Source: a virus. Taken from it: 30,503 bases of DNA. The position numbers and the translations under genes are program-made. The stretch covers positions 1-30,503 of IMG/VR virus record IMGVR_UViG_3300017763_000113; one strand, given 5' to 3'. The notes beneath the pieces are model-generated. The model was not told the origin of the DNA and did no database searches. It saw only the letters and a list, made by a program, of their open reading frames with translations. Of the stretch, positions 3,701-30,337 are shown piece by piece; within the stretch, counting starts at the first letter, position 1, and each line of letters opens with the position of its first letter.

Positions 3701-4963
3701 CATGAAGGTCTTGATGGTACTTATGGAAATCCTGGTGGTGATTTGAGAAACTGGGACATTAGTATTCCTGGTATTGCAAGAACAGATAATGTCTACTTTA
3801 GATTGTATATGCCAAATAATAGTGGAACAATTTATGATAACTATGGTATTTTAAGTGTCTCATTTATTGATGAAGGCACGGAATATACTGATAGTACAGT
3901 TACATTAACACCCAATGCACTGGAGTCTAATCCATCGGGCATCACAACAGCAACAGCAAATGTTTGGATCAATAAAAATATAACCGATATTGAACTAACT
4001 GATGGTGGTTCTGGATATGGTGGAACATATGCATTATCAATGTCAGGTGGAAATCCAACTTCACCAGGATCTGGTCAAGCAGTTGCAGATGGAAATTTAT
4101 ACTATGATGGTTATGTTGGTATGGTGAGATACTATAAAGGTAGACCATTCATTCAAGATGAAGTCAATCAACATTATGAAGAGCAAATTGCAAGATTTGA
4201 TCCAAGTAAGAAACCATCAATATCTTTTGGAAACTCAGATCCTAGTACCGATGCATCACTTGCTGATATAACTACAACTGGACTTGTAATGCACATTGAT
4301 GGTCCAACTAAATTTGATACTGATTTAAGTGGTAATGGCAATGTACCAACTTATTATAGTGATAATCCATATAATGGACTATCATATCTTAATTTTCAAG
4401 GAACTACCAATACTTCTGGTGGTGGATTACTTAGTGGTGTGAACATATCTGGAGGTTCCTTTGCAATGGAAGCATGGATTTATCTTCTAGGAAATCCTAA
4501 TTCTGGCACAAATGGACAGATTGTATCTCAAGATGATGGTGGTAATGATGGGCAGGGATGGCAATGGAGAATAAGTGATGCTCCAGATTATCAACAAGAT
4601 TTTGTATATTTTACTTCTTCATCAAGAGGTTCTGCAGTTGATCTCTCAGCAGCACCAACTCCAATTCCTTTAAATAAATGGAGTCACGTTGCAGTTACAT
4701 ATGATGGAACTGATATTAGAATGTACTTGAATGGTGTTCAAGATTTTATCCACACACCAGCATCTTCACTTTATGCAAGCAGTACTCAGATAGGAATTGG
4801 AAGATATGGTGGCACCGCTTTTGCTAGCAGTTATAGATTAAATGCTAGATATGGTGCTGTCCGTCTTTACAATCAGTTCTTAACTGGTGATCAAATCAAA
4901 TCACACTATGATTTACAAAAGTATCGTTTCATCCCTCAATCTCTCACTTTATCATACGAATAA
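737..4963 (+). CDS. Subtilisin-like serine protease fused to two LamG/concanavalin-like domains
   Basis: This 1408-residue protein carries a full S8 (subtilase) catalytic set: Asp180 in IMDTGIRWDHPEF, His255 in SWHGSHVGGTAAG, the oxyanion Asn404 in CSAGNSDH, and Ser515 in GTSMAAPNVTG. Residues ~10-95 resemble an I9-type inhibitory propeptide, ending in RQHPKVEWVEES, so the enzyme may be autoprocessed. Residues ~605-785 and ~1180-1400 look like LamG/concanavalin A-like sugar- or protein-binding folds (NTWNHVVLTRTSNKIDFYLN and KWSHVAVTYDGTDIRMYLNG). Between them lie Gly-rich segments of the GSGY type (~790-855 and ~1083-1110), common in marine phage structural proteins. No signal peptide is visible. 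The start has GGGAGA at 721-726 upstream and overlaps the preceding stop. Neighbours suggest a virion-borne enzyme acting at the host surface or in virion maturation; this is inference. Confidence 0.9.
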   Translation: MHTEVHSESGRVIVISDIADNESQSFTVAIRDPADWQEMHDYIINENDLDGIPNRRIDCTAEMPFSTKRAVYQISVEEAEVLRQHPKVEWVEESSTYNPTCLEQRKYDEKFDRHADKFRFKDTSIRHLRAAGTPGSDLDFTQWGLHRHGYKNDPFGSETNATADIKYQFTGKNVDVVIMDTGIRWDHPEFLKPGVTTFVDKNSTRVRDILIHGASEYGIDWEAEGLIPAGQSTYSNYTVANVLESSTFGNPGSWHGSHVGGTAAGNQFGAAFEANIWSIACVDRSDVGWAEPSDGFDYIKVWHKNKPINPETGKRNPTIVNCSWGHRQFIRTDLSSEATFRGVSYGDGGDFYRNEAYDAIYYLDYTTSVYKGFTTRRVSGQTIMNELLDDPDCQGVVFICSAGNSDHKQDTIGGIDYNNRFTSGSLYYSTAGYDSYFHRGGTPAVGHEGAADAVISVAALSEYYSNSQETLDSYTNRGPRTDISAAGGEILSPWDAGYDDPRDTSFHNNYLQGTSMAAPNVTGVLALYLQSRPDATRVDARNWLFDHGSIVAPLRDSEPDFTDSSYWGSSTALRNTIPRVLFNPFANNERVSIVPGVEQIIKENLVMELDGEKEEIVDNIWRDTSRNGSNNLATLDPGVDYFGDRYSYQFNGNAKASIANNSDFQSIGEFTIELWYNQHTHSLSNVYPTVIFGSWNALEVDDNEFAIYQQPDGTLTYELAGGSANSGITSTHQTTPQLNTWNHVVLTRTSNKIDFYLNKEKTTYQGIYSPNITCTLEARVGTDNSTGDFINRVTGISAGSGYETVPTVNVVNPGGATGATFVASLSTQGTFKRFEVTSGGSGYTYPPVVTLGGGMADVGATAAITAGVVTSISLDGIVYDTTNSDDIFQFGSGTSIASNGSGNGEQGGFDIGETHLRFGDSDGGIRAVVVNPVDATDFDTIRIYAIRGDDFNGGELPEGDSGDESLRLSYNIGAGVTDSWTDAGIIIWHEGLDGTYGNPGGDLRNWDISIPGIARTDNVYFRLYMPNNSGTIYDNYGILSVSFIDEGTEYTDSTVTLTPNALESNPSGITTATANVWINKNITDIELTDGGSGYGGTYALSMSGGNPTSPGSGQAVADGNLYYDGYVGMVRYYKGRPFIQDEVNQHYEEQIARFDPSKKPSISFGNSDPSTDASLADITTTGLVMHIDGPTKFDTDLSGNGNVPTYYSDNPYNGLSYLNFQGTTNTSGGGLLSGVNISGGSFAMEAWIYLLGNPNSGTNGQIVSQDDGGNDGQGWQWRISDAPDYQQDFVYFTSSSRGSAVDLSAAPTPIPLNKWSHVAVTYDGTDIRMYLNGVQDFIHTPASSLYASSTQIGIGRYGGTAFASSYRLNARYGAVRLYNQFLTGDQIKSHYDLQKYRFIPQSLTLSYE

Positions 4964-11998: not shown

Positions 11999-14900
11999 AT
12001 GACTAGAAATAGTAGAGAATTATCTCAATTTGCATCTTTTGTTGAAATTAGAGATGCTAATCAAAACATAGGATTGTCAACATCTTTGGTGATGTTGGGT
12101 GGTGTTGGTATTGGTAGTACGGTCGGTGATTTTTTAGCAGAAAGAGCACTAAGAGATCCTGATGGTGATCCATTAATTAACTTTAATAAATCATTTTTCT
12201 TAGATGATGTCTTCATTCGTGGAGACTTCAATCTAGATGGTGGAGAAACTTCTATAACTGGTGCTGGCGCCACATTCCCAGCATTGAATGTAACTGGATT
12301 AACAACAACTAAAAATCTAGTTGTCACGGGTGTTACTACGCTTTCCCGTGACACTGGAATGGGAACGGTTTATATTGGTCAACAATCGGTTCCTGTTGCT
12401 GGAGCACAGGGAGATGATCCAACAAATAGTAACTCTGATATTGGAATTGGAATTACTGGTCCTGGTGGAACAGTTAATGGTTCTGCGGATGGTCCTGGTA
12501 TAGCACACGGTTTAGTTGTCATTGATAATGTTGGTGCTGGAGATCCTCAAAAGGATGTAGCACTATATGTTTCAGGTAGGGTTCACTTTAATGGTGGTGA
12601 TCCACTTATTACTGATCCCGCAAATGGTGGTGAAACTGGGTTAGGAACTGAGTTCGTTGTTGTTCCCGAATCACTCTTCTATGACACCATTACTTGCATG
12701 GAAGATATCAATATCGTCCGTGAACCAGGTAATTCAACGAAAGCAAGATTAAGAGTATTTAATGATGAACGTGAGGGTGATTGGGCACAAGCAGGTATTG
12801 ATACAGAGTCAGCATCTGCTGCAATTTTCACTACTGGTGGTTTTGAAGCAAAGAAATTTGGATCAGTAGGTTGGGGATTAAGAGTTCAAGAATATGTTGA
12901 TGTTGGTTATGATTTAGGTGGAACTAGTGGATCTGAAGATCATCTCGGTGATGATGTACTCAGTAGATTTTACGGAAATATGAATTTGGAGATGCCAATC
13001 CTTTCGATTGGTATGACACCTGCTTCCCATAAGGCATCATATGCTCCATACGGAAAAACTGAGGTTAATACTGATGGTGCAGTATTCTCCCAACTACAAC
13101 CAAATATTGTTAACACTCCAACTGGTGGTATTGGTAGTGATGGTGCTCGTTGGAATAATGTTTTCAGTAACTTCTTAGATGTTGGTCCTTTAGGAACTGA
13201 CAGTCAAGCAAATATGGTTAACCTAGACGTTGGTTTGGGTGCAACTATTGGATATCTAAATGTTGCTGGTGTTGGTGGAACCGATGAGAATGAAATTTAT
13301 CTAGATGTTGGTCCTGGTAAATCAAGACTATCTAATGTGGATAGTTCTGGATTCTTTAATCATCTTGGTGTTGCAACAATCAATGGATTCTTAAACGTCA
13401 TCAGTGATAGTTACAATAATGCGTATGTTGCTACTGCTTTCCAATCAAATAATGTAGATTTATTCAAGCAAGACGAAACTAATAGTACAAATCCCGAGTT
13501 TTTCTATCCAGCAATGGGCAACTCTGGACAGAATCAAACTGATGCTGGTGCTCAACTATTTGTCAACCCAGGATTCTATCTGGATGCATTTGGTACTAGT
13601 TTATTCGTACATAATAATCTAAATGTTCTTGGTACATCTATTCTTGCGTCAGAAGAAAATCCAGACCTAAGATTTGACCTAATAAACTATGGTGTTACTG
13701 AACTTAATTTTGCAAGTCAGGCAAGATATATTGATATTGGTGAAGCACAAAGTGCTGTTGGTGGTTTTACAACAATTAGAAGTAATAATACAGAACTTGC
13801 CAGACTAGTTCTATCACAGAATGAGATTAAAGCAAGTGATCAGCAAGTAAATATCACTCTTGATAGTGCAACATCCACAGCATTTGCTGGTTTTGTTCAA
13901 ATTGGTGGTACACACATTAAATGTGATTCCAATGTTATTGACATTGCAGACTCATCACAAAGAGCAGATTTATTCAAACAAGCAGAAGATATTATTGTTG
14001 GTTCTAATGATGTTGGTATCATCACCATTAGGAATAATGTCACAGAACTTACTGGTTTCTTGAGACTTGGTAAGAATGTTATTCAATCATCTGATGAATT
14101 TACCGCAATTCAAATTGGATTGGGTGCAACATATACTGAAGTCACTGGTGATTTGGTTGTTGGTGGAAAAGATATTCAAGATGGTATTGGTATCACAAAC
14201 ATGACCCTAGATGGTGATGTTAAGACTACTTTCTATGGAGACATTGAGGTTCGTGGAAATCAGATTCTAGCATCAGATGGTACAGTCAACATCTTGATGT
14301 TTGATGCACAAGAAGCAACGAGTTTTACTGGTAACATAAGAGTTGAAGGCAATAACATTTTAGCAGGTACTGGTGATACAAATATCACTATGGTTGCAAA
14401 TAATAATACCATATTTGCTGGACCAATTCAAGTCAATGGTAATGCAATTCGTGCAAGTAATGGTCAAGATAACATCGAAATGGATAGTGATGTTAAGACA
14501 ACCGTTTTAGGTGATTTGCAGGTAGGTACAGGCACAATGCGTGCTGGTGATGCAACAATATGTATTAAAATGATTGGTGGTACTGGTGATGTTGGAATTA
14601 CAAGTGACTTAACTGCTAATAGTGCATTCTTTAATGGTGATGAAGCAAGACTGAATACATTAGATGTTAACATCAGAGATAATCTACTAACTCTTGGTCT
14701 CATTGAAGATCCACTTAATCAAGGTCAACTTATTCCTCCTAATGTATCGGTAGGAAATAGTGGTGATGCTGGTATCGTCATGGCACGTTATGACGTTGGA
14801 CTTTCAACTCATAAGTATGCTGCTATTTTCTACGATAATTCTCAAGGAAGAATTGCAATCCGCACTGATGTTAATCCAGATCCTGGTACTGGTGAGGTTG

Positions 14901-15202: not shown

Positions 15203-15367
15203 ATGGACCCATCTGAAATTTCTTTAAGTACTCCATCAAAATCTTTTGAATATGAAAAACTTGCTAGAGATATTGATAAAATTGAAGATATTGAAGAACT
15301 GAAAATGACTCTTAAATCTTATGTTAAATTATATTTTAAGCAACAAGAAACAATTAAAATGATCTGA
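15203..15367 (+). CDS. Small conserved phage protein of unknown function (54 residues)
   Basis: The frame from ATG 15203 to TGA 15365-15367 encodes a 54-residue acidic, helical-looking protein (start MDPSEISLSTPSK, end FKQQETIKMI). AAGGA at 15190-15194 gives a ribosome site 8 bp before the ATG. It has no cysteine, membrane segment or known motif. The region FEYEKLARDIDKIEDIEELK suggests one amphipathic helix, perhaps a dimer or partner-binding helix. It lies between two sigma70-type promoters and before the helicase gene, so it is probably expressed early. I considered an NblA-like antenna-degradation peptide because size and helix fit loosely, but the sequence does not support that name. Confidence 0.65.
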   Translation: MDPSEISLSTPSKSFEYEKLARDIDKIEDIEELKMTLKSYVKLYFKQQETIKMI

Positions 15368-15450: not shown

Positions 15451-16698
15451 TTGACCATCACTCTTCGTCCACACCAGCAACGTGCAGTTAATGCTATGTG
15501 GGACAACAGCAAAGGTCAGGTCATCGTTCCTACGGGTGGTGGCAAGACTATTTGTATGATTGAAGATGTAATGATCAATCTTGATCTTATCAATCTTGGT
15601 CAGACTTATGTTGTTGTAGCACCTCGCATTCTGCTTGCTGAACAACTTTGTAGTGAGTTTCTTGAACTGATTGATACTAAGAATGTTCATGTAATGCACG
15701 TTCATAGTGGTGAGACTCAGCATTTCAGCAGCACTAAAGCAGAACAGATTCATATGTTTGCTAATGTTGCTCGGACTTCTGGTGACTCCTGCATTATCTT
15801 TACTACCTATCACTCTCTTCATCGTGTGATGGAAGCAGATATTGAGGTCAATACTATCTACTTTGATGAAGCACATAACAGTGTTCAACGTAACTTTTTT
15901 CCTCCCACTGAGTTCTTCTCTCACGAAGCAGATCGTTGCTTCTTTTTCACTGCTACTCCTAAGCATTCTATCACGGTAATGAAACCTGGCATGAATGATC
16001 CTGAAGTTTATGGTCAGGTTATTTGTCAGGTTCCTGCTCCAGAACTTATCAATGGTGGTTTCATTATTCCTCCTAAAGTTGTTGTTAATCAACTAGATAA
16101 TGCAGATCTCTATCCTGATGTTCCTCTCAGGGATTCTACACACTTAATCAAGACTATTGATGAGACTGGTGCTGATAAGGCATTGATCTGCTCTAAGTCT
16201 ACAAAAAACATCATCAATCTAATTGGTCAGTCTGACTTTACTTTCCAACTAGAATTGCGTGGATATTCTTACATGTATATCACAGCAAAAACTGGTGCTA
16301 TCATCGATGGACGTAAAGTCAACCGTGAGGTGTTCTTTGACACTTTGAGTGCATGGGGTCGTGATGATGACAAAAAGTTTGTTGTGCTCCACCACAGCAT
16401 CCTCTCAGAAGGTATCAATGTCAGTGGTCTTAATGCTGTAATTTTCATGAGGTCAATGGATTATATTGGCATCAGTCAGACTATCGGTCGTGTGATTCGA
16501 TTGCATAAAGATGATGCTGCTGGTCTTCGCAATGGCACTATTGTTCCTGGTAAACTTGATCAGTATACCAAATCTTATGGTCTAGTTTGTATCCCTGCCT
16601 TCAATAAAGTTGGTATTCAGACTGCACAAAAGATTCAGAATGTTGTTGACATTGTGTTTGAGCAAGGTGATGCTGCTGTTTCTGTAGTTAAGAAGTAA
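15451..16698 (+). CDS. Superfamily 2 DEAD/DEAH-box helicase (UvsW-like or type III restriction-like)
   Basis: This 415-residue protein has the main SF2 helicase motifs in order: LRPHQQRAV (residues 5-13), Walker A PTGGGKT (27-33), DEAH (139-142), TATP (167-170) and the arginine-finger motif QTIGRVIR (343-350). It should use ATP to translocate on or unwind DNA or RNA; in T4-like phages such enzymes act in recombination, fork regression or the change of replication mode. It is shorter than T4 UvsW (about 500 residues) and begins almost directly at the Q-like motif, so it lacks the UvsW N-terminal domain and I do not use that name. The start must be TTG at 15451: an in-frame TGA lies at 15436 and the next ATG (15496) would cut into the fold. 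AGGGA lies ~7 bp upstream. Confidence 0.88.
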   Translation: MTITLRPHQQRAVNAMWDNSKGQVIVPTGGGKTICMIEDVMINLDLINLGQTYVVVAPRILLAEQLCSEFLELIDTKNVHVMHVHSGETQHFSSTKAEQIHMFANVARTSGDSCIIFTTYHSLHRVMEADIEVNTIYFDEAHNSVQRNFFPPTEFFSHEADRCFFFTATPKHSITVMKPGMNDPEVYGQVICQVPAPELINGGFIIPPKVVVNQLDNADLYPDVPLRDSTHLIKTIDETGADKALICSKSTKNIINLIGQSDFTFQLELRGYSYMYITAKTGAIIDGRKVNREVFFDTLSAWGRDDDKKFVVLHHSILSEGINVSGLNAVIFMRSMDYIGISQTIGRVIRLHKDDAAGLRNGTIVPGKLDQYTKSYGLVCIPAFNKVGIQTAQKIQNVVDIVFEQGDAAVSVVKK

Positions 16699-16931: not shown

Positions 16932-17600
16932 ATGTCAAATTTTTCATTATATTGTGATGTTCCAGAAGGGCATAATGAATATCTAATTCCCATGTTTTCT
17001 GTCCCACTTCTGCATCTCAAAGTGGAAGAATGGGATGAAAAGAGAAAAAGTCTTCTCGATATGTATTCAAGAAGAAGACAAGAAAGTGATAAATTTAAGA
17101 TTGCCACAGGTTCTAATTCTTCTCTAGATGTGGAAACTGATTATCACCACAATCATGACACTGGAGAGACTTACGATAGAGAAATAACAGATATTCTCAA
17201 ATCAGAATTAGAAACTTTTTCAGATACTTTTGAATGTGCTGCTGAAGTATGTACTTCATGGTTTGAAAGAGCAACTAATAGTAAGTTTCATCAGGTCCAT
17301 AATCATGGATCTATGGGATTTAGTGCTGTATTATTCATTCAGTTTAGTCCTGAGTATCATACTCCCACAGTATTTTTGAATCCAAACCTGGCAGATAATG
17401 AGGTTTGTAATTGCGTACCACCAGGAATTAGGGAAGGTTCACTTATATTTTTCCCTTCTTATGTTCTTCATTATACTGCACCGAATGAGAGTGAGAAGGA
17501 TAGAATCGTCCTCTCATTTAATATAAATGTAGAATACGAGAGTTTTTCTTTCGCAGATGAAGACGATAGTGATGGTGAATACTTCACAAAAGATGTCTAA
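16932..17600 (+). CDS. 2-oxoglutarate/Fe(II)-dependent oxygenase-like protein
   Basis: This 222-residue protein fits the phage and bacterial family of putative 2OG-Fe(II) oxygenases related to Pfam 2OG-FeII_Oxy_5. The metal-site segment is FHQVHNHGSMGFSAVLF (His120, His123, His125). The distal part, GSLIFFPSYVLHYTAPNES, holds His180, followed by Arg191 in DRIVLSFNI as likely 2-oxoglutarate ligand. The family typically shows an H-x-H pair rather than HxD here, so the exact ligands are uncertain. Such enzymes use O2, Fe(II) and 2-oxoglutarate to hydroxylate proteins, nucleotides or small molecules. It is first in a run of four oxygenase genes and its end overlaps the next start by 8 bp. The C-terminus is acidic (ADEDDSDGEY). 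Confidence 0.75.
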   Translation: MSNFSLYCDVPEGHNEYLIPMFSVPLLHLKVEEWDEKRKSLLDMYSRRRQESDKFKIATGSNSSLDVETDYHHNHDTGETYDREITDILKSELETFSDTFECAAEVCTSWFERATNSKFHQVHNHGSMGFSAVLFIQFSPEYHTPTVFLNPNLADNEVCNCVPPGIREGSLIFFPSYVLHYTAPNESEKDRIVLSFNINVEYESFSFADEDDSDGEYFTKDV

Positions 17601-18156
17601 ATCATTTATTCTTCGCAATTTTTTATTCAAAGATGATGTAAAAGCACTCAATCAATGGACTCTAGATAATTGTCATCTAGATTTTTTTGAAGATGCCTGC
17701 ATGGATCCAGATAATCATGGAACACGATTCACAACTCGATTCCCTAATGAAGAGATAGCACCTAATTTAAACTATCCAAAGTCTGCACATACTGTACGGC
17801 AAAGAATAATCAATTATTTTCATCTAGAAGGTTACAAAAGTCCACCATCCTACAGTCATGGAATTGTAAATGGCATTGGATATGATGGTGGCAGAATAGA
17901 GAATCATATTGACCCTACATATTATCCAAATACTAAAACAGTTCACTTTAATGCTATTACTCAACAAGCACATAAGGGTGGACATACGATCATTGGTGGT
18001 GTAGAATATACAGATATAAATTCTACAGATCTTTTGATATATCAAGTCTCTGAGATTCACCATGAAGTAACACCAACACAAGGTGATACTGCCAGAATAC
18101 TATGGGTTTTTGGATTTTGTTTAGATGATGAAAAAGTACAGGAGATATTCTTATGA
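17593..18156 (+). CDS. 2-oxoglutarate/Fe(II)-dependent oxygenase
   Basis: This 187-residue protein has a double-stranded beta-helix core. The HxD motif is His105-Ile-Asp107 (ENHIDPTY), the distal His is 156 or 157 (EIHHEVTP) and the 2-oxoglutarate-binding Arg168 lies 11 residues on (TARILWVFGF). Spacing fits the prolyl-4-hydroxylase-like superfamily. I chose ATG 17593 (MSKSFILRNFLF) rather than the longer frame from 17557: it aligns with the usual family start, and the longer option would overlap the previous gene much more. The stop overlaps the next start (ATGA). The substrate is unknown; the tail-collar fibres in the same block are candidates, by inference. Confidence 0.8.
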   Translation: MSKSFILRNFLFKDDVKALNQWTLDNCHLDFFEDACMDPDNHGTRFTTRFPNEEIAPNLNYPKSAHTVRQRIINYFHLEGYKSPPSYSHGIVNGIGYDGGRIENHIDPTYYPNTKTVHFNAITQQAHKGGHTIIGGVEYTDINSTDLLIYQVSEIHHEVTPTQGDTARILWVFGFCLDDEKVQEIFL

Positions 18157-18890
18157 AAGATTTTGCCAACGATGAATCATTATTTGAAACTAATGATTTT
18201 TCTAATATGAATATCATTGAGTTTTGTGATGGTGATAAGGTTTCCAATTTTTATTGGATGGATAATTTTTATAAAAGACCATACGATGTCTATGAATATC
18301 TTTTATCTGTTGAACCACCATTATGGAAAATGGGAGAAGATTGGGAACTTGGCAGAGGTACACTCAACACAAAAAACTTTGAGGATCGTAGACATATGAT
18401 GAAGCATCCTGGTATGTCTTCACTATACAGTAAGATCTCGGGTATTTGTGACCAAGAATCCGCAGATGTGGATGAAATTGTAACTAATTTTTCAAGATTC
18501 TCACGAATTGATGATAACCCATACGAAACTCATTACTGGTGGCCTCACCATGACGGAGGATACAATGGTATATGTTACTTAAGCACGAATGATGAAATTG
18601 GAACTAACTTATATAAACCATTGGTAACAGATAATCCAGACTTATTACCTCTAGATGAAAATGATGGTGTTAGAGATGAACATGCAATACCATGGACACC
18701 AAAAAACTTATGGGAAACTGTAGTTAGTTTTCGTTCAAAATTCAATAGATTTGCAATGTTTGAAGGATCATATTATTATCACAGTATGAACTTAACTGGT
18801 GAACATTATTTTGGTGATCACTATAGTGATGCCGAATACAGAATTAATCAAGTATTTTTTATGATGAATGAAACTGAGGAACAAGATTGA
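18153..18890 (+). CDS. 2-oxoglutarate/Fe(II)-dependent oxygenase-like protein
   Basis: This 245-residue protein starts on an ATGA overlap with the preceding oxygenase. The HxD motif is His132-His133-Asp134 (WWPHHDGGYNG), the distal site is His210 in SYYYHSMN, and Arg230 (YRINQVFF) is the likely 2-oxoglutarate ligand. The insert between these motifs (~150-195, LYKPLVTDNPDLLPL, IPWTPKNLWE) is longer than in its neighbours. The layout resembles a phage-enriched 2OG-oxygenase family annotated as domain of unknown function in databases. It probably hydroxylates a protein or small molecule; no substrate is indicated. Confidence 0.75.
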   Translation: MKDFANDESLFETNDFSNMNIIEFCDGDKVSNFYWMDNFYKRPYDVYEYLLSVEPPLWKMGEDWELGRGTLNTKNFEDRRHMMKHPGMSSLYSKISGICDQESADVDEIVTNFSRFSRIDDNPYETHYWWPHHDGGYNGICYLSTNDEIGTNLYKPLVTDNPDLLPLDENDGVRDEHAIPWTPKNLWETVVSFRSKFNRFAMFEGSYYYHSMNLTGEHYFGDHYSDAEYRINQVFFMMNETEEQD

Positions 18891-18891
18891 C

Positions 18892-19548
18892 ATGCACAGA
18901 TTCAGAGATGAAATTACTCCAAACGATGATAATTTCTTAGAGATACCTATTAGTGACAAGAATCGTGAAGATCTTTTCATTACACCATTGTATACCTTTA
19001 CTCTAGACATTGATAACGGACCTCTGATTAGAGAATGTTTAGATTTGCGGGAAAGATTTCCCAATGGAGTAAAAAAATCCAATTTTGGTGAAGGTTGGCA
19101 GAGTCAAGTCTATGAATTGCCCACAATCAAAAGAACAACAACTCCTGCTATTCAAAATTTAGCAAGAAATGCTATCGATCTGACAAATGAAATATTGGAA
19201 GACTTTGGTGCAACTTATAGAGTAGATGATAATCAAATTGGATGGTGGATGAATATTAACAAGGGAATGGGATATAATGTTCATCACACTCATCCTGGAT
19301 GTACTGTTATTGGACTTTATTATCCAAAAATTCCTAGTGACCTAAATGAACAGGAAGGTAAACTCACTCTAATCAGAACTGATCCATCAAATCATAATGC
19401 TGCGTTTGCTGATGTTGCCAATAATTGTGAATGGGTAATTGAACCTGAGGAAAATGTTTTTTACTTGATGCCATCTACAGTTGCACATTATGTGACACCA
19501 CACTTTAGTGAAGAGGAGAGAATATCTATTGCATTTAATATTGGATAA
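18892..19548 (+). CDS. 2-oxoglutarate/Fe(II)-dependent oxygenase-like protein (2OG-FeII_Oxy_5 type)
   Basis: This 218-residue protein shows the family signature GWWMNINKGMGYNVHHTHPG with His131, His132 and His134, then VIGLYYPK. The distal site is His199 in STVAHYVTPH, with Arg210 in EERISIAFNIG. These are hallmark elements of putative 2OG-Fe(II) oxygenases widespread in cyanophages. I chose ATG 18892 because it follows the previous stop by one base and has GAGGA at 18876-18880; a start at 18868 inside the previous gene is possible but adds only 8 residues. The stop codon lies within the late promoter octamer for the collar fibres, so the oxygenases and fibres are directly linked. Confidence 0.78.
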   Translation: MHRFRDEITPNDDNFLEIPISDKNREDLFITPLYTFTLDIDNGPLIRECLDLRERFPNGVKKSNFGEGWQSQVYELPTIKRTTTPAIQNLARNAIDLTNEILEDFGATYRVDDNQIGWWMNINKGMGYNVHHTHPGCTVIGLYYPKIPSDLNEQEGKLTLIRTDPSNHNAAFADVANNCEWVIEPEENVFYLMPSTVAHYVTPHFSEEERISIAFNIG

Positions 19549-19551
19549 ATA
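19544..19551 (+). promoter_or_regulatory. T4-type late promoter (GATAAATA) before the collar fibres
   Basis: GATAAATA overlaps the TAA stop of the oxygenase gene and lies 34 bp before the ATG at 19586. It would drive late expression of the two collar fibre genes. Confidence 0.65.
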
Positions 19552-19585
19552 ATACACGTTATCTGTTGTTAGTAATTGGTATAAT

Positions 19586-20122
19586 ATGTCTATTCTGCAA
19601 ACGAGTGGTATTCAATTTGGACTTGATAATACCGTTCTTAATTCTAAATATGGCATTATTCCTCAGAATAGTGTTGCAGTATTTTATCAAGCATCGGCAC
19701 CTAGTGGATGGTCTCAAGTAACTACTCATAATAATAAAGCACTTAGAGTTGTATCTGGAACTGGTGGTGGGTTCGGTTCTGGTGGATCTAATGGTCCTGG
19801 TGGACAACCATTTTCTACTATATTTCCTACATCAACACGTCCAATTAGTGGTACTGTAACTTCTGCTGGTTCAGTAGGAAACACAACATTAACAGTGCAG
19901 CAAATTCCTGGACATACTCATAATGCAGGTTCTCAGGTTAATGTAAGTCCTGGATCTCCTAGTGTTGGAGGACGTGCCGTAAATACTTCAGCACCAGCAA
20001 CATCTCCAACGGGTGGAGGTAACTCACATACTCACCCATTTGTTGGTGCCTCATCACCTTATAGTGGAAGTATTGACCTTAGAGTTAAATATATTGATGT
20101 TATCATCTGTCGTTTTAGTTGA
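19586..20122 (+). CDS. Phage tail collar fibre protein
   Basis: This 178-residue protein has a tail collar domain (residues ~22-65: YGIIPQNSVAVFYQASAPSGW, then LRVVSGTGGG). A central Thr-rich stretch ends in QQIPGHTHNAGS. The C-terminus holds GGGNSHTHPF and ends DLRVKYIDVIICRFS. The two HTH motifs (110-112 and 148-150) resemble the HxH metal-binding motifs of T4 short- and long-fibre tips, where His residues hold metal ions along the trimer axis; metal binding here is an inference. Between the motifs lies a ~35-residue linker rich in Ser, Pro and Gly. It is paralogous to the next gene, which has a huge insertion in the same linker. It follows a late promoter. Confidence 0.82.
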   Translation: MSILQTSGIQFGLDNTVLNSKYGIIPQNSVAVFYQASAPSGWSQVTTHNNKALRVVSGTGGGFGSGGSNGPGGQPFSTIFPTSTRPISGTVTSAGSVGNTTLTVQQIPGHTHNAGSQVNVSPGSPSVGGRAVNTSAPATSPTGGGNSHTHPFVGASSPYSGSIDLRVKYIDVIICRFS

Positions 20123-20132
20123 GGTATAATAT

Positions 20133-21395
20133 ATGTCTATTTTAAGAGCAGACGGGATCCAGTTCGGAAATGGTACTCAATTAAATACGTTTTACGGTAT
20201 TGTTCCACAATCATCTACGATGCTGTTTTATCAATCAGCAGCACCAACTGGGTGGACTAAAGAAACATCAGCAAACGATCAAGCACTTAGAGTTGTAGAT
20301 GGAACGGGTGGAGGATCTTCTGGACAGAATAGTTTCAGCACAACATTTGATGATGGTGGTGCTACTTCAGTTGTAACTTCAACCCTATTGGGTAGTATTG
20401 GACCAACAACACTAACAACACAACAAATTCCAGCACATACCCATAATACTGGATCAAATCCAAATTCCTATAGATCATCTGGTGGTTCTTCACCATTTAG
20501 AACAACTAATAGGCAACCACGTGGATATAATATTAGAGCAACAACTAGAACACAAATTAATAATCGTGTTCAGATTAATTTTAGACAACCTAGACAGGTA
20601 AGACAACCTCGTAACTATAGACAACCACGAAGGCAGAGAGTTCCACTCAGAAACAGACAACCAAGAAACTTTAGAGTAAGATATCCTACACGTTCTAGAA
20701 GACCATTTAGTTTTAGAGTTCCTGTTCCATTCCGTGTTCCTGTAAGATCACGAAGACCAATATCTCAACGAAATCCTGGTGGAAGATGGAGAAACTCTAT
20801 TGGTCAATCTTGGAGAGCAGGTGGAAGAAATAATGATAGAACACCAAGAAGAAGATGGGGTCGGAGAAGAAGAAATGATAGGATTCCAAGAAGAGCAGAT
20901 AGAAGACAACCTAGAGTAAGTTGGTGGAGACAGAGAAGACAGTTTAGAAGACCTGTATCTTTTAGACAGAGAAGATCTTTCCGTCAACCTCGTAACTTTA
21001 GACAACCTAGAAATGCAAGACAGAGGAGATCATTTAGGAGGAGGCAACCAAGATCATTCAGAGTGAGGTATTCATTCAGGCAGAGAAGATCTTTCCGAGT
21101 GAATATTCCGTTCAGAGTAGCAGTTCCTCAGAGAAATCCTTCATCTTTTAGACAACCAAGAACATATCGTACACCTCAAAGATATCCACAGACTACAAGT
21201 GTGAGGGTAACTCAAAGGGTTCTAACTCCTGGTGGTACTATTAGGAAGAATAATACTCAAGGACCAGCAACAAGATCAACTGGTGGTGGTCAATCACATA
21301 CTCATCCATTTACTGGTAGTGAAGTTACTTTCTCTGCTGCACTATCACCACTTAGAGTTCAATACATTGATGTCATTACTTGCAGTTTAGATTAA
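20133..21395 (+). CDS. Tail collar fibre protein with a large Arg-rich (FRQP-type) insertion
   Basis: Residues 1-110 match the paralogue at 19586 closely (MSIL-x-x-x-GIQFG, YGIVPQSSTMLFYQSAAPTGW, LRVVDGTGGG, QQIPAHTHNTGS). Residues 373-420 match its end (GGGQSHTHPF, LRVQYIDVITCSLD). Between lies a ~262-residue segment (111-372) that my hand count gives as about 81 Arg and only 3 Asp/Glu, built from irregular units such as FRQPRN, FRVPV, QRRSFR and RSRRP. It would be an elongated, strongly positive shaft or coat. HTH motifs flank the insertion. GAGG at 20121-20124 is the ribosome site. In related cyanophage fibres the same place often holds YRQP-type repeats with far less Arg; this version seems extreme. 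Confidence 0.82.
   Translation: MSILRADGIQFGNGTQLNTFYGIVPQSSTMLFYQSAAPTGWTKETSANDQALRVVDGTGGGSSGQNSFSTTFDDGGATSVVTSTLLGSIGPTTLTTQQIPAHTHNTGSNPNSYRSSGGSSPFRTTNRQPRGYNIRATTRTQINNRVQINFRQPRQVRQPRNYRQPRRQRVPLRNRQPRNFRVRYPTRSRRPFSFRVPVPFRVPVRSRRPISQRNPGGRWRNSIGQSWRAGGRNNDRTPRRRWGRRRRNDRIPRRADRRQPRVSWWRQRRQFRRPVSFRQRRSFRQPRNFRQPRNARQRRSFRRRQPRSFRVRYSFRQRRSFRVNIPFRVAVPQRNPSSFRQPRTYRTPQRYPQTTSVRVTQRVLTPGGTIRKNNTQGPATRSTGGGQSHTHPFTGSEVTFSAALSPLRVQYIDVITCSLD
20463..21248 (+). repeat. Purine-rich repetitive DNA encoding the Arg-rich fibre insertion
   Basis: This stretch of the collar fibre gene is dominated by AGA and CGT codons and near-repeated words such as AGACAACC, CAACCTCG and AGAAGATCTTTCCG. Short imperfect repeats of 18-27 nt encode FRQPRN-like units, so it could expand or contract by slippage or recombination. 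Confidence 0.7.
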
Positions 21396-21406
21396 CATCG
21401 TGCTAT

Positions 21407-21414
21407 AATAAATA
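21407..21414 (+). promoter_or_regulatory. T4-type late promoter (AATAAATA)
   Basis: AATAAATA lies in the short gap after the collar fibre gene, 19 bp before the ATG at 21434. It overlaps a sigma70-like TATAAT (21404-21409), so host polymerase may also read it. Confidence 0.65.
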
Positions 21415-21433
21415 ATACACTGAATCCCTTGTT

Positions 21434-21820
21434 ATGGCAAAACAGACTGGTAAATGGTGTCCACTAATTCGTAAGGATTGTGTAGAACATAAATGTGCAT
21501 GGTATACGCATATTGCGGGTGTAGATCCTAATACTGGAAATCCAGTAGATCATTGGTCTTGTGCCATTCAATGGATGCCAATGCTAATGATTGAAAATAG
21601 TCAGCAACAACGTTCTACAAGTTCTGCTGTTGAGTCTTTCCGTAATGAAATGACTAAAGCACACGAAACTAATCAGAATATGTTGGATGCTGTCGGTAAC
21701 ATGTATCTTGATATGTGTGAAGATCAGGGTGTCAATGTTTCTGAATACATTGAACAGATTGATGGCATAGATAATGAAGAAGAAAACTTACTACCCGAAT
21801 CCGAAGAGGAGAAAAAATGA
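21434..21820 (+). CDS. Conserved phage protein with a Cys/His-rich N-terminus
   Basis: This 128-residue protein has a possible metal-binding cluster in its first 50 residues: WCPLIRKDCVEHKCAWYTHI followed by DHWSCAIQW, giving four Cys plus nearby His. A zinc or iron-sulphur site is possible but not proven. The rest is helical (SSAVESFRNEMTKAHETNQNMLDAVGN) with a very acidic C-terminus (NEEENLLPESEEEKK). I recognise the pattern as a conserved cyanophage protein of unknown function. It has its own late promoter and overlaps the next gene by ATGA, so it is coexpressed with the coiled-coil protein. Confidence 0.75.
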   Translation: MAKQTGKWCPLIRKDCVEHKCAWYTHIAGVDPNTGNPVDHWSCAIQWMPMLMIENSQQQRSTSSAVESFRNEMTKAHETNQNMLDAVGNMYLDMCEDQGVNVSEYIEQIDGIDNEEENLLPESEEEKK

Positions 21821-23151
21821 AAATTTCTATTATCCCAGAAGATAAAAAAATTATCGTAGATGGTAAAACCGTGGATCTTGAGGATAATGCACCTTGGGAT
21901 TTTGATGATGAACCCATCCATGCAATTCAGTGGAAGGATGATAGAGGTGAATTGGAATATGAAGATATTATTGGTGAAGAACCAGCACCAAATAAAATTT
22001 TTGGTGTAGATGAATTTGATACTATTGTTCAACCATATCTAGATTACTTTAATACATTTTTGGATTCATACGAGAAATCAGAACTTGAGTCTGCATTACA
22101 AGAAGAGCAAAATATTGCTGATCAGATTGAAGAATTGAATATTGATAAACTTGAGAAAGAAGCACAACTTGTTATCATCGAAGACCTCAAGAGACAGAAT
22201 AGAGAACTTCGTGATGAGAGAGAAGATTTGTATGAGGAAAAGAGTAAGTCAGATCAAGCAGCAGTATATGACAAGCAAGTTGCTTTAATTGAACTCGAAC
22301 GTGAAAAAGCAGCACGTGAATCTGAAAAGGCAGGTTTAGAATCACAGAAAGCAGATGAGTTTTTTGAGAAGAAGTCTTTAGAACTTGCTAAAAAGTATGA
22401 TGAACTCTTTCATGATTTTGAAAAGGAAAAAGATGCTTTTGTAGAAGAAAGGAAAGAGTATCAAGAATTGCTGCAAATGGAACGTGATAAGATTGAGAGG
22501 GAAGATGATCTTTCTATGAAGCAACTTGCTCTCGAAGATAAAGAACGTGAAACAAGAGAGGAAATGATTGCCAAGGTTAGGTTGATCGAAGAAGAACAAC
22601 TTGACATTGCTAAGGCAGAACTTGAATTGCAGAAACAGGCAGTTGATATTATCCGTTTGGAGAATCTTGAAGTTCAAGAACAAATCAATGCTGCTAGAGA
22701 TGTAATTAAAGTAAATCTTGAAAAGCAGGAAGATGAGTTTGAGAGGAGAAAGGATCAAGAACTAGAAATTATCATGAGATCTCATGAAGATCTAATGAAT
22801 AAAATGTCTCAGGAAGAGGCATTTGATGAACTAGATGATGCTGTAGAACGTGAATTTGATAAAGCAGAAGTTGAGTATAAAGAATTTCAAAGAGAAAAAC
22901 TCAAGCAATCTAATAGCAGTATTCATGCTGCTGGTCAAGAGAAAATCATTAGAGATAGTATTGAACGTGAAGAAATTCAGGGTGGTGCTGACAAATCTAT
23001 CGAAGATATCCTAACACTTATGGACGGTATTGACCCAGAAGAACTTTATACTGTACTAACTGATGATGAGAGAGGAGAAAATTCTTTCCCTGTAGATAAG
23101 GCAGTTAAGTGGTTTGCTGCCCTAAAAGAAGTTCTAGATAAAAATGATTGA
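21817..23151 (+). CDS. Long coiled-coil phage protein, function unknown
   Basis: This 444-residue protein has three parts. Residues 1-60 (MKISIIPEDKKIIVDGKTVDLED, then PIHAIQWKDDRGELEYED) match a small domain common in cyanophage proteins near fibre genes. Residues ~80-370 are highly charged, Glu/Lys-rich and heptad-like (ELNIDKLEKEAQLVIIEDLK; DEREDLYEEKSKSDQ), predicting a long coiled coil. Residues ~385-444 (SIEDILTLMDGIDPEELYTVL to WFAALKEVLDKND) form a helical end. It could be a fibre-assembly scaffold or a rod-like virion part. No membrane segment or enzyme motif was seen. It overlaps the Cys/His-rich gene and precedes three more oxygenase genes. Confidence 0.75.
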   Translation: MKISIIPEDKKIIVDGKTVDLEDNAPWDFDDEPIHAIQWKDDRGELEYEDIIGEEPAPNKIFGVDEFDTIVQPYLDYFNTFLDSYEKSELESALQEEQNIADQIEELNIDKLEKEAQLVIIEDLKRQNRELRDEREDLYEEKSKSDQAAVYDKQVALIELEREKAARESEKAGLESQKADEFFEKKSLELAKKYDELFHDFEKEKDAFVEERKEYQELLQMERDKIEREDDLSMKQLALEDKERETREEMIAKVRLIEEEQLDIAKAELELQKQAVDIIRLENLEVQEQINAARDVIKVNLEKQEDEFERRKDQELEIIMRSHEDLMNKMSQEEAFDELDDAVEREFDKAEVEYKEFQREKLKQSNSSIHAAGQEKIIRDSIEREEIQGGADKSIEDILTLMDGIDPEELYTVLTDDERGENSFPVDKAVKWFAALKEVLDKND

Positions 23152-23160
23152 TATATTGAA

Positions 23161-24558
23161 ATGAATAATGAATTGTTGAAGAACAACTATATCGTTGTTC
23201 CTAATTTTATCGATCCAGATCATGCCTCACGATTAGAAAAAGAGTTCTTTGTTACTGATGAAATCTTTGATTTTAGTGGTGATGAACAGGCACCAAACTC
23301 ATCAGCAGTATATGATTATCTCCCAGCATTAGAACTTCTGGCAAACAAAACTTCGGAAGTTTCTAAACTAATTGGTGAAACTGTTCTCCCAACTTATGTT
23401 TATTCTAGAATATATCGAAACGGAAGTATTCTTCATAGACACACTGATCGTCCTGGATGTGAAATATCATTAACATTGCACTTAGGTAGTGATAAACCTT
23501 GGGCAATTTGGATTGAAACACCAGAAGGAAAGAATAGATCAGTTAACTTGAATCCTGGTGATGCTATGCTATACTTGGGATGTATTGCTCCACATTGGAG
23601 AGATCAATTTGAGGGTGAAGAGTACACTCAATTTTTCTTACATTATGTAAGAAGTCGTGGTATGTGTAGTCCTGCATACTTTGATAAAAACAAATTTAGA
23701 GACATTGACACTGAAGACTTATTACGGGAGTACAAACAAATGGGAAAGTTTACTAATGTAAATGAGATGACAATACTTCCAAAGAAGTATAGAGAAAAAC
23801 AAGAAAGAAACGATGATAATAAGGTTGAATTTATACTAGATTCTAATAACGATACTGATACTTTCTTTGACTTTGACGATGTAGTCATTGCTAATGATAA
23901 GTATAAAAAGTTCTTGACTAAAAAAGATACTCCAGAATTGATTAATGAACCTAAGGTAGAGAATAAAGCAAAACCATCGGGCAAATTGTCATCTAAACCT
24001 ATTGCTGATTTTGTATGGCATGGTCAAGAAGTTGTTGATCCTGAACTATGTGATAAAATCCTAGATGAGTATGCAAATACAAACTATTGGGAAGCAACAT
24101 TAACTGGAAGTGGTCATGATCCAGATGCACGAAGGTGTGAACAAATTTGTATTTCTGAGCAATCAATCATTGCTGAAGATAATTCTGACACTAGGAAACA
24201 GTTAGATGATCAAATGTTTGAGGTTGTTCAAAACTTGATCGGACTTTATCAAGAAGCACATCCAGAGTTTGAACTAGAGATTCAAGAGGATAGTGGTTAT
24301 GAACTGCTCAAATATGAAGAGGGTGACTTTTATATTGAGCATACAGATTCGTTCAAAGAACAACCTAGAGCATTAACAGTGATTGTGTCAATGAATAATG
24401 CATATGAAGGTGGAGAAGTTGCTTTATTCAATCGTGAACTAGTATATAAACTTGATGTTGGTGATGTAATTATGTTCCCATCTAATTTTATGTACCCGCA
24501 TGAAATTATGCCAGTTACTCAAGGAACAAGATTCTCTATCATTACTTGGGTTGTATGA
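23161..24558 (+). CDS. Fused protein with two 2-oxoglutarate/Fe(II) oxygenase domains
   Basis: This 465-residue protein contains two complete oxygenase domains. The N-terminal one (~1-185) has His94-Thr-Asp96 (ILHRHTDRPGCE) and distal His145 (APHWRDQF). The C-terminal one (~285-465) has His394-Thr-Asp396 (FYIEHTDSF), distal His447 (MYPHEIMP) and Arg457 (GTRFSIITW), with the LTVIVSMNN-YEGGEVAL strand typical of prolyl-4-hydroxylase-like enzymes. An acidic, Lys-rich linker (~200-285) joins them. Both HxD pairs are intact, so both halves may be active. The stop overlaps the next start (ATGA). Substrate unknown; the two active sites could process repeats on one long protein, which is an inference. 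Confidence 0.85.
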   Translation: MNNELLKNNYIVVPNFIDPDHASRLEKEFFVTDEIFDFSGDEQAPNSSAVYDYLPALELLANKTSEVSKLIGETVLPTYVYSRIYRNGSILHRHTDRPGCEISLTLHLGSDKPWAIWIETPEGKNRSVNLNPGDAMLYLGCIAPHWRDQFEGEEYTQFFLHYVRSRGMCSPAYFDKNKFRDIDTEDLLREYKQMGKFTNVNEMTILPKKYREKQERNDDNKVEFILDSNNDTDTFFDFDDVVIANDKYKKFLTKKDTPELINEPKVENKAKPSGKLSSKPIADFVWHGQEVVDPELCDKILDEYANTNYWEATLTGSGHDPDARRCEQICISEQSIIAEDNSDTRKQLDDQMFEVVQNLIGLYQEAHPEFELEIQEDSGYELLKYEEGDFYIEHTDSFKEQPRALTVIVSMNNAYEGGEVALFNRELVYKLDVGDVIMFPSNFMYPHEIMPVTQGTRFSIITWVV

Positions 24559-25205
24559 AACATAATGATTTTATTGGTCATTATGAAAATGTAATGGATG
24601 TTGATGCTTGTGATGCTGTAATTTCACTCTTCGATTCCAATTGGCAACATCCTGATGATCCAAATAACAAATTAAGAACTGGTCAGGGAAATACTGAAAC
24701 TGAAAGAGGTCATTTAAATAGGCACGACTATCAGTGGTATCTGGATCCTAGTCCATCATTTGATCTTATTGTCAGAACTGTAGAGTATTGTTGGGAACAG
24801 TATAAACAAACTTTTTGGGTTTCTAATTATGTTCATATCAACTTTGATGAGGTAAAACTTCAAAAGACTTTTCCCAGAGGTGGATTTCATGACTGGCATT
24901 GTGAGATTACTGATTTAGGAGCAGTTGACAGATGTGTTGCTTGGATGTTATATTTGAATGACATTCCCGAAGGTGAGGGTGAAACAGAGTTCCTTTGGCA
25001 AGGTCGTAGAGTACAACCAAAAGCAGGGACGATGTTAATTTGGCCCGCATTTTACACACATGTTCATCGTGGAAACACTGTATATTCAAAGAGTAAATAC
25101 ATTGCAACAGGTTGGGGAAACTATTTTTGTAATGATAGTCAACTGGAAGATTATTTTGAACATGACGACAATCTAAAACTATTCACAGACAGGAAACGAG
25201 ACTAA
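24555..25205 (+). CDS. 2-oxoglutarate/Fe(II)-dependent oxygenase with HxE variant site
   Basis: This 216-residue protein is placed from ATG 24555, which overlaps the preceding stop; the TTG at 24546 would add only 3 residues. The active-site segment is GGFHDWHCEI, in which His115-Cys-Glu117 forms an HxE variant of the usual HxD. The distal site is FYTHVHRGN (His169 or His171). LYLNDIPEGEGETEFLWQGRRVQPKAGTML is the strand and turn pattern of prolyl-4-hydroxylase-like proteins. Glu can replace Asp as iron ligand in some members, so activity remains likely but should be tested. It belongs to the second oxygenase group after the coiled-coil gene. Confidence 0.8.
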   Translation: MKHNDFIGHYENVMDVDACDAVISLFDSNWQHPDDPNNKLRTGQGNTETERGHLNRHDYQWYLDPSPSFDLIVRTVEYCWEQYKQTFWVSNYVHINFDEVKLQKTFPRGGFHDWHCEITDLGAVDRCVAWMLYLNDIPEGEGETEFLWQGRRVQPKAGTMLIWPAFYTHVHRGNTVYSKSKYIATGWGNYFCNDSQLEDYFEHDDNLKLFTDRKRD

Positions 25206-25414
25206 TGGCACTATCTGACCAAGTAAAAGTAGAAATAGATTCTGCTCAAACACATCTTCGTGAAGCATTGGCATTTGCTGCAAGAAATGAGAAACCGTTT
25301 TTTGTTAAAGCATTGGGTGAAATGATTCATGCTTTAGATACTCTATCATCAGCAGATGATTTTATGGATACTATGCAGGAATTGTTGGAAAAGAATGATG
25401 AATTACCAGATTAA
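25205..25414 (+). CDS. Small helical phage protein of unknown function
   Basis: This 69-residue protein begins on the stop codon of the previous gene (TAATG) and overlaps the start of the next oxygenase by about 17 bp. It is acidic and helical (SDQVKVEIDSAQTHLREALAFA, then DDFMDTMQELLEKNDELPD), with no Cys or membrane segment. Its place between two oxygenase genes suggests co-translation, perhaps as a partner, but there is no direct evidence. Confidence 0.65.
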   Translation: MALSDQVKVEIDSAQTHLREALAFAARNEKPFFVKALGEMIHALDTLSSADDFMDTMQELLEKNDELPD

Positions 25415-25991
25415 AACTGAACCTTTCTCTCATGTTATCATTGAAGAAACATTTGATGAAGAACAATATGATATGATTTGGAGAGAACTTGATTTTCTTT
25501 TGAATAAGTTCAAGGATCCTGAAGGATACATGGCAGCAAAAGATGATGATGGAAACTATCTAACAACAGCAAAAGGTTTATCATTAGATGCAGTGTATAA
25601 TAATGAATATAGAAATATTTCTGACATCTTAACTATTTGTCAGAAGATTTTTTTCAATGATGATAAGTTTTTTGATGATTTAGTGGAAAAGGATGATTAT
25701 TGGACGACATATAAAAGGTCTAGTGAAGATTGGACTAAAATCAGAAGATATTTTCCTGGAGATGGATATGACCCACACGCAGATACTTGGGTGAATGTGT
25801 TAGTAACCACAACACTTTGTCATAAGGAAGATGAGGGAGGAAATTTATATTTCCCAAGATATGATTATGAAATTCAAACGAGTAATAATAAGACTGTAAT
25901 TTTTCCTGGTTGGGTTGAACATTCTGTCACAGATGTGTTGGAGAATGACAGATATGCTATCACAAAGTTTATACACTGTGCCAGTAAGTGA
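25398..25991 (+). CDS. 2-oxoglutarate/Fe(II)-dependent oxygenase
   Basis: This 197-residue protein (start MNYQIKTEPFSHVIIEE) has His127-Ala-Asp129 in GYDPHADTW, distal His175 in WVEHSVTDV and Arg185 in DRYAITKFIH, a regular HxD-H-R set. ATG 25398, with GGAA 7 bp upstream, was preferred; ATG 25395 is an equal option, and the longer frame from 25356 encodes an unlikely Cys/Trp-rich leader. It is the last oxygenase of the block and the last gene before a sigma70-type promoter, so transcription units probably change here. Confidence 0.8.
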   Translation: MNYQIKTEPFSHVIIEETFDEEQYDMIWRELDFLLNKFKDPEGYMAAKDDDGNYLTTAKGLSLDAVYNNEYRNISDILTICQKIFFNDDKFFDDLVEKDDYWTTYKRSSEDWTKIRRYFPGDGYDPHADTWVNVLVTTTLCHKEDEGGNLYFPRYDYEIQTSNNKTVIFPGWVEHSVTDVLENDRYAITKFIHCASK

Positions 25992-29747: not shown

Positions 29748-30011
29748 ATGCGAGACTTCATCTGTGCTTACTTTGGCAGAGGTTCTGATGGCAAAGACTG
29801 GACGATCACTGCGAGAGGTTTCGAGAACACTCAAGAGGCAGAAAAGCATGGTCTCTATATGATGCCAATGCCAGGATGTTTCGGGTTTGCTGTTATCGCA
29901 GAAAACGATCTTCAAGAGGGTTGGCAACTACGACTCGAAAGGTCTATGTTATCACCAAACAACAAAGTTGTTCAGGACGATCTCAACAACTACAAAATTG
30001 TTTCCTACTGA
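29748..30011 (+). CDS. Small hypothetical phage protein (87 residues)
   Basis: This 87-residue protein (MRDFICAYFGRGSDGKDWT start, NNYKIVSY end) follows the third repeated promoter/leader. It looks like a small alpha/beta fold with two Cys (ICAYF and MPGCFGF) and no known motif or membrane segment. The stop overlaps the next start (TGATG), so it is coupled to the metallopeptidase-like gene. Function unknown. Confidence 0.65.
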   Translation: MRDFICAYFGRGSDGKDWTITARGFENTQEAEKHGLYMMPMPGCFGFAVIAENDLQEGWQLRLERSMLSPNNKVVQDDLNNYKIVSY

Positions 30012-30337
30012 TGTTATTCACCTCAGGCAAATCTCAACACACTCACCTCACACAAAGTGTGTTTGAGTTCTTTACAACCAAATATCAGATTGATAGTGAC
30101 GTTGAGGTTTATCACACTGACCTAAGTGATGATAATGCCTTTGGATTCACTGAGGTTAATGGTGATGAGCAATTTGTTCAGATTCACAATGATCTGAATG
30201 AAAAGGATTACATCACCACATTGCTGCACGAATTAGTTCACGTTGTTCAGAACGAAAGTGGACAATTTGATGATGAAGAGAGAGAAAATGAAGCATATTC
30301 TTTAGAATCTATTCTTTTCAACCAATTCACTAACTAA
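30011..30337 (+). CDS. Putative HExxH zinc metallopeptidase-like protein
   Basis: This 108-residue protein starts at ATG 30011 on the stop of the previous gene; the longer frame upstream is only the out-of-frame shadow of that gene. The motif His73-Glu-Leu-Val-His77 (TTLLHELVHVVQNES) is a classic zinc-peptidase helix. Glu94 in ENEAYSLES, 17 residues beyond His77, could be the third ligand, giving a gluzincin-like arrangement. The whole protein is near the minimum size for such a fold (compare minigluzincins and SprT-like domains). It may process a phage or host protein; HExxH can also occur by chance, so activity is unproven. Confidence 0.6.
   Translation: MLFTSGKSQHTHLTQSVFEFFTTKYQIDSDVEVYHTDLSDDNAFGFTEVNGDEQFVQIHNDLNEKDYITTLLHELVHVVQNESGQFDDEERENEAYSLESILFNQFTN

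Follow-up and report, generated by a model that had tools for sequence, protein, structure and literature searches.

Oxygenase genes of the 2-oxoglutarate/Fe(II) type around a hexad-repeat collar fibre gene in a T4-like cyanophage fragment: a candidate fibre-maturation module

Bacterial prolyl-4-hydroxylases (P4Hs), such as those of Bacillus anthracis (3itq, 5hv0) and Pseudomonas putida (4iw3), are single enzymes that act on EF-Tu or collagen-like proteins or whose structures were solved with such proteins. Protein hydroxylases are also present in viruses, as in the lysyl hydroxylase L230 of mimivirus and vCPH of a chlorovirus. Both of these belong to viruses of eukaryotes and have collagen-type substrates. 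Few genes of unexplained role are as common in marine phages as those for 2-oxoglutarate (2OG) oxygenases, which are mostly assigned to auxiliary metabolism. The locus described here is a block of seven genes encoding eight 2OG/Fe(II)-oxygenase-type domains around collar fibre genes. It lies in a window of 30,503 bases, a single IMG/VR record (IMGVR_UViG_3300017763_000113) from a T4-like cyanophage. It differs from the bacterial P4Hs in having up to eight domains, beside a hexad repeat which is not collagen, and from L230 and vCPH in that this repeat, found in the second collar fibre (col2), lacks a Gly-X-Y pattern.

The genes of the window matched those of Synechococcus phage S-SCSM1 (Kyanoviridae); in the 12-25 kb stretch the DNA was 79% identical at 88% coverage. 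The block was collinear with S-SCSM1 gene by gene, including all seven oxygenases, the collars and the Cys/His-rich (cys) and coiled-coil (cc) genes. The 2022 paper on S-SCSM1 reports 24 2OG-Fe(II) genes, including open reading frames (ORFs) 240-243, 248 (with two regions), 249 and 251, and interprets such genes as reprogramming host metabolism (PMC9602691). Judging from their order, position and domain make-up these seven ORFs would be the seven genes of the block. As they were already named there, the cluster as such is not new. The fibre link and the repeat are not discussed in the available text of that paper. New here are the Pro/Arg hexad insert in the second collar, its association with the oxygenases and the recurrence of the arrangement in a second lineage. 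No paper was found in literature searches for prolyl hydroxylases together with phage tail fibres, and those found for collagen-like proteins together with prolyl 4-hydroxylase were, by title, on other topics.

The gene order is ox1, ox2, ox3, ox4, col1, col2, cys, cc, ox5, ox6, ox7 (Table 1). A first-pass annotation of the window had placed seven such genes with eight domains between 16932 and 25991, and all were found open at those places. Its starts at 17593, 18892, 24555 and 25398 are plausibly internal to longer ORFs beginning at 17557, 18868, 24546 and 25356. The collar fibres, the Cys/His-rich gene at 21434 and the coiled-coil gene at 21817 likewise lie between ox4 and ox5. The frames of ox1/ox2, ox2/ox3 and cys/cc overlap or abut, which is consistent with co-transcription. 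Every gene of the block had a dN/dS of 0.09-0.33 in comparison with the relative L008, indicating purifying selection. In eight cyanophage genomes, with the S-SCSM1 block excluded, only 0.14% of 9.1 kb windows held at least five Pfam-detected 2OG loci, so the density of oxygenases in the block exceeds chance.

Table 1. Coordinates of the block, its repeat and promoter-like features, and its left neighbour (window positions).
Feature	Position	Strand	Remarks
ox1, 2OG/Fe(II) oxygenase, PF13759 type	16932..17600	+	PF13759 45 bits; phrog_81
ox2, 2OG/Fe(II) oxygenase	17557..18156, likely start 17593	+	predicted fold, conserved motif
ox3, 2OG/Fe(II) oxygenase, phrog_1644 'minor coat protein' label	18153..18890	+	predicted fold, motif
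ox4, 2OG/Fe(II) oxygenase, PF13759 type	18868..19548, likely start 18892	+	PF13759 55 bits
col1, short collar fibre protein, 178 aa	19586..20122	+	S-SCSM1 orthologue gp128 annotated virion protein
col2, long collar fibre with repeat insert, 420 aa	20133..21395	+	collar part matches solved tail fibre 9qgo_A, E 2e-7
hexad-repeat insert of col2, candidate substrate	20463..21248	+	262 aa; [FY]RQPx motifs
cys, Cys/His-rich protein	21434..21820	+	regular neighbour of collar genes in relatives
cc, coiled-coil protein	21817..23151	+	shorter in phages with short collars
ox5, two-domain protein	23161..24558	+	C domain PF13640 56 bits; N domain phrog_3531/2954
ox6, 2OG/Fe(II) oxygenase, PF13640, HxE type	24546..25205, likely start 24555	+	PF13640 39.6 bits
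ox7, 2OG/Fe(II) oxygenase, PF13640	25356..25991, likely start 25398	+	PF13640 35.3 bits
late-promoter-like motif ATAAATA before col1	19545..19551	+	also in 26/33 relatives
late-promoter-like motif ATAAATA before cys	21408..21414	+	in 13/25 relatives
UvsW-like helicase, left neighbour of the block	15451..16698	+	Pfam ResIII/DEAD; collinear in relatives

The insert of col2 is rich in Arg (81 residues), Pro (28) and Gln (25) and is built of hexads such as FRQPRN and YRQPRR. Its repeat peptide is FRQPRNFRQPRN. Identity of the insert with itself was 78 at lag 6 and 76 at lag 12, against 22-48 at other lags up to 11. Among relatives the Arg at six-residue spacing was invariant over much of the insert, and the dN/dS of 0.24 again indicates purifying selection. 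In more distant relatives the hexads were still rich in Pro but contained less Arg (YRQPQS, YQQPSA, NRQNPx). A collagen-type hydroxylation substrate was considered and set aside; col2 of S-SCSM1 was not flagged by a Gly-X-Y scan and the repeat is a Pro/Arg hexad.

Loci of relatives were gathered with cys and col2 queries, together with those found with ox3. They were de-duplicated by cys sequence, and a complete collar with at least 5.5 kb of upstream sequence was required. In 22 unique loci the second collar was long (420-517 aa) and contained 6.4-11.8% Pro, and every one of these loci carried ox1-ox4 genes upstream; 20 had all four, L053 had three and L051 two. None of ox1-ox4 was present in the 25 unique loci with a short collar (171-192 aa). 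The near relatives among the 22 entered through the ox3 search and are thus not independent of the oxygenases, and the distant ones (L049-L056, L066, L095, L123-L136) entered through col2 or cys. The collar-cys-cc-ox5 arrangement was found in both collar classes and is deeply conserved, being present in most relatives. Some relatives lacked ox6, and ox7 was limited to nearer relatives. The order ox1-ox4-col1-col2-cys-cc-ox5 was retained down to approximately 40-50% protein identity, while genes further out turned over. Co-occurrence of oxygenases with collar fibres across relatives, whose absence had been named beforehand as refuting, was observed.

A similar combination was found in a second lineage. 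Viral contigs were scanned at the DNA level for Q-P at six-residue spacing. This mostly returned unrelated Pro-rich proteins, and it also led to a different T4-like group whose neck/tail region encodes an unrelated Pro-hexad protein pair with YRSPFT, ARQPNN and AQEPNIR repeats. Two genes follow on the 3' side of this pair, one for a 241-aa PF13640 protein and one for a PF13759 oxygenase of 235 aa. Of 60 unique loci 57 had enough downstream sequence to be informative, and both genes were present in all 57. The reverse search, from the oxygenase, found the repeat protein upstream in 20/20 informative unique loci. The background frequency of both families together was approximately 5% of 8-kb windows in the eight genomes. 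As these loci are mostly close relatives, the 57 and the 20 represent one syntenic arrangement and not many events. One contig of this lineage, L426, has a 524-aa gene between the repeat pair and the oxygenases (12131-13705) with a weak, sub-threshold glycosyltransferase-8 match, which could fit sugar addition onto hydroxylated residues. Elsewhere, S-CAM9 (NC_031922, 27398-32890) encodes an 1830-aa collagen-like tail fibre, gp222, followed by oxygenases gp220 and gp219, the UvsW-like helicase and an ox1 orthologue, so that the helicase adjoins ox1 there as it does in the window.

Assignment of the eight domains was based on profile searches and predicted structures, as the first-pass annotation had proposed, with Pfam matches counted only above curated cut-offs. 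Five domains passed (ox1, ox4, ox6, ox7 and the C-terminal domain of ox5, ox5C) and are placed by Pfam in the 2OG/Fe(II) oxygenase superfamily. No Pfam or NCBIfam match over cut-off was obtained for ox2, ox3 or the N-terminal domain of ox5 (ox5N). As the sequence profiles of ox2 and ox3 had no significant PDB relative, AlphaFold models of both were compared with solved folds by Foldseek and structural realignment, in which rows within Z 1 were taken as tied. Both models were double-stranded beta-helices aligning over most of their length to 2OG oxygenases, and both are 2OG-oxygenase folds at the level of the models. The ox2 model (pTM 0.75) was nearest to PHD2 (Z 11.9, its best) and the P. putida P4H, with the B. 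anthracis P4H and vCPH also close and non-prolyl enzymes tied. The ox3 model (pTM 0.87) was closest to OGFOD1 (Z 12.6, its best), mimivirus L230, LH3 and PHD2. The first profile hits of ox5C included the P4Hs 3itq (E 9e-6), 5hv0 and 4iw3, which are its nearest solved profile relatives, and ox5C appears prolyl-4-hydroxylase-like by sequence. The fold and profile neighbours of ox2, ox3 and ox5C were mostly protein hydroxylases (P4H, PHD2, OGFOD1, lysyl hydroxylases). The 'minor coat protein' name of ox3 is a PHROG label alone, and a 'virion protein' tag is lacking on gp130, the orthologue of ox3 in S-SCSM1.

The predicted HxD, HxE or HxH metal sites with a distal His were confirmed in homologue alignments, with metal ligands 96-100% conserved in all eight domains. 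The motifs were H123-x-H125...H180...R191 in ox1, H117-x-D119...H169...R180 in ox2 (34 sequences), H132-x-D134...H210...R230 in ox3 (37 sequences) and H140-x-H142...H207...R218 in ox4, with all four residues invariant in each. The two PF13759 members, ox1 and ox4, have HxH instead of HxD/E. The remaining motifs were H394-x-D396...H447...R457 in ox5C, H118-x-E120...H172/H174...K184 in ox6 and H141-x-D143...H189...R199 in ox7. A basic residue for 2OG binding had also been predicted. It was present 10-12 residues or so after the distal His as Arg in ox1, ox2, ox4, ox5C and ox7 and as Lys in ox6; in ox3 the Arg is at +20, and ox5N has no canonical residue.

The late promoters of the first-pass annotation held in part. 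The ATAAATA motif precedes the fibre gene col1 and cys, and it was upstream of ox1-ox4 in only 1 of 131 instances among relatives. A fibre gene also adjoins cys in P-SSM2, where the order is fibre-cys-PSSM2_030-PSSM2_031, a minimal module, and in Roseobacter phage CRP-361. In the latter the gene after cys carries a tail assembly chaperone annotation, and none of its annotated neighbours is an oxygenase. Because cys follows a fibre gene in these two phages as well, it is plausible that cys and cc are fibre partners or assembly helpers.

The block can be read as a fibre-maturation module in which several of the oxygenases hydroxylate repeat fibres, most likely at proline; we consider this about evenly balanced between right and wrong. 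The collar fibres, cys and cc, the last two possibly as assembly helpers, would be produced together with ox5. A lineage with a long Pro-rich hexad second collar would in addition have ox1-ox4 upstream and ox6, sometimes ox7, downstream. Fibre synthesis would be late, with ox5 (and ox6/ox7) co-expressed and ox1-ox4 reached by read-through from upstream. With Fe(II), O2 and 2-oxoglutarate, the enzymes would hydroxylate fibre side chains on the nascent or folding repeat. The prolines of the [FY]RQPx repeats would be the most likely target, with Arg or Asn as second choice. The model is that of prolyl hydroxylases acting on collagen-like or extensin-like repeats, and hydroxylation may stabilize the repeat or change its surface. 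Enzyme activity, fibre substrate, target residue and effect on the fibre are all inferred from the genes and their linkage.

A dedicated system hydroxylating virion fibres had been suggested at the outset. The oxygenase folds, the collar linkage and the second lineage speak for it, while the set was already reported and 17 of the 24 S-SCSM1 genes lie outside the block. Further points weigh against the fibre-maturation module. The association of repeat collar and oxygenases is strict yet rests on few evolutionary events; collar class changed once on the ox5 tree (452 columns, with L122 set aside) and twice on the cys tree (129 columns). L122 had entered the ox5 tree as a short collar; its collar is cut by the contig end and the remaining fragment shows the hexad repeat. 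The repeat was missing from the collars of loci ordered collar-cys-ox5N-ox2 that hold distant ox2 homologues (L322, L323, L326), and other such homologues were in clusters where no collar gene was recognized (L319, L321, L324). The S-CAM9 ox1 orthologue adjoins uvsW without a repeat collar. Oxygenases and repeat are therefore not tied together in every case. In S-SCSM1 col2 carries no 'virion protein' tag, unlike col1, and ox1-ox4 are without the late-promoter motif. Across the eight genomes, oxygenases were not clearly nearer to collagen-like or Pro-rich proteins than expected.

Among the alternatives, the oxygenases may serve auxiliary metabolism, acting on host metabolites or drawing on 2-oxoglutarate in a way that steers NtcA and energy supply, with the fibre genes being only a hot spot of gene acquisition. 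This role has been proposed for cyanophages (PMC3037559; PMC9602691) and would account for the 24 genes of S-SCSM1 and the 4 to about 20 Pfam-detected loci in each of the eight cyanophages. It is considered unlikely in view of the retained gene order, the strict association with the repeat insert, the recurrence with an unrelated repeat protein and the nearest folds, which are protein hydroxylases.

Modification of a small molecule or of a surface glycan of host or virion, or action as a halogenase or epimerase, is distinctly unlikely. ox2 aligned to WelO5/WelO15 and SnoN at tied Z (~11.5) and had a weak, sub-threshold WelO5 Pfam match. Halogenases such as WelO5 lack the carboxylate of HxD, having HxG/A in its place. 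Assignment of ox2 as a WelO5-type halogenase was dropped because D119 was kept in 34/34 sequences. A further point against this alternative is that no sugar-nucleotide genes lie within the block.

An inherited neighbourhood, in which a chance event brought in the repeat collar together with ox1-ox4 and they then persisted as a syntenic block without functional link, would need only the single change on the ox5 tree. It is nevertheless very unlikely, given purifying selection on all genes, a block intact over deep divergence while outer genes turn over, and the similar combination in the second lineage. Least probable of all is nucleic-acid oxidation or repair by AlkB/TET-like enzymes, for which ABH2 as the top Foldseek match of ox3, a sub-threshold Tet_JBP match of ox5C (20 of 34.9 bits), the adjoining UvsW helicase and the repair role proposed for Syn9 oxygenases (PMC2984593) can be cited, but after structural realignment of ox3 the AlkB homologues stood level with or below OGFOD1, lysyl hydroxylases and PHD2, and the genes to which the oxygenases are linked are structural, with late-promoter-like motifs.

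The fibre-maturation reading may extend to marine T4-like phages in general. Pro-hexad virion proteins would then undergo dedicated hydroxylation by several specialized oxygenases per fibre, the pairing would have arisen at least twice, in the collar-repeat and in the YRSPFT-repeat lineage, and part of the '2OG oxygenase' and 'ferrochelatase' metabolic genes catalogued in cyanophages and pelagiphages would be fibre-maturation machinery. This extension is tentative and more probably wrong than right. Were the oxygenases directed at fibres, many 2OG oxygenases would move to virion maturation, it would be the first multi-enzyme hydroxylation of phage fibres, and S-SCSM1, a phage cultured on Synechococcus WH7803, would offer a directly testable substrate.

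The 'ferrochelatase' label concerns ox5N. This domain (23161-23760) matched strongly to phrog_2954 and phrog_3531, both named ferrochelatase. It differs from that name in its conserved H94-x-D96...H145, present in 75/75 homologues, and no ferrochelatase family was found in Pfam at E up to 10, nor a relevant one in NCBIfam. Profile similarity of ox5N to ox5C, run with hhalign on non-overlapping segments, was weak (probability 21%, E 0.001), with the HxD and distal His in register. On these sequence comparisons the label is probably wrong and ox5N is probably an oxygenase fold; it is the least certain of the eight domains. 'Ferrochelatases' were reported as seasonally enriched and co-occurring with 2OG oxygenases in pelagiphages (PMC11561400). 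These may partly be the ox5N-type domain, and the label behind such seasonal metabolic-gene claims could be corrected. PSSM2_031 of P-SSM2 is called ferrochelatase and has the gene name piuC. On contig L290 (10034-12292) ox5N-, ox6- and ox5C-like genes are adjacent, and the same contig encodes an APTTT-repeat protein.

Three other genes of the window were noted. A 54-aa ORF at 15203-15367 corresponds in place and length to nblA (phycobilisome degradation) of S-SCSM1. A protein with an IrrE-like (Peptidase_M78) metallopeptidase domain is encoded at 29876-30337. Among the tail-fibre genes, a 1408-aa protein (737-4963) has a subtilisin-like (Peptidase_S8) domain and C-terminal laminin-G/ConA-lectin domains; a protease-lectin virion protein, if it is one, would be unusual.

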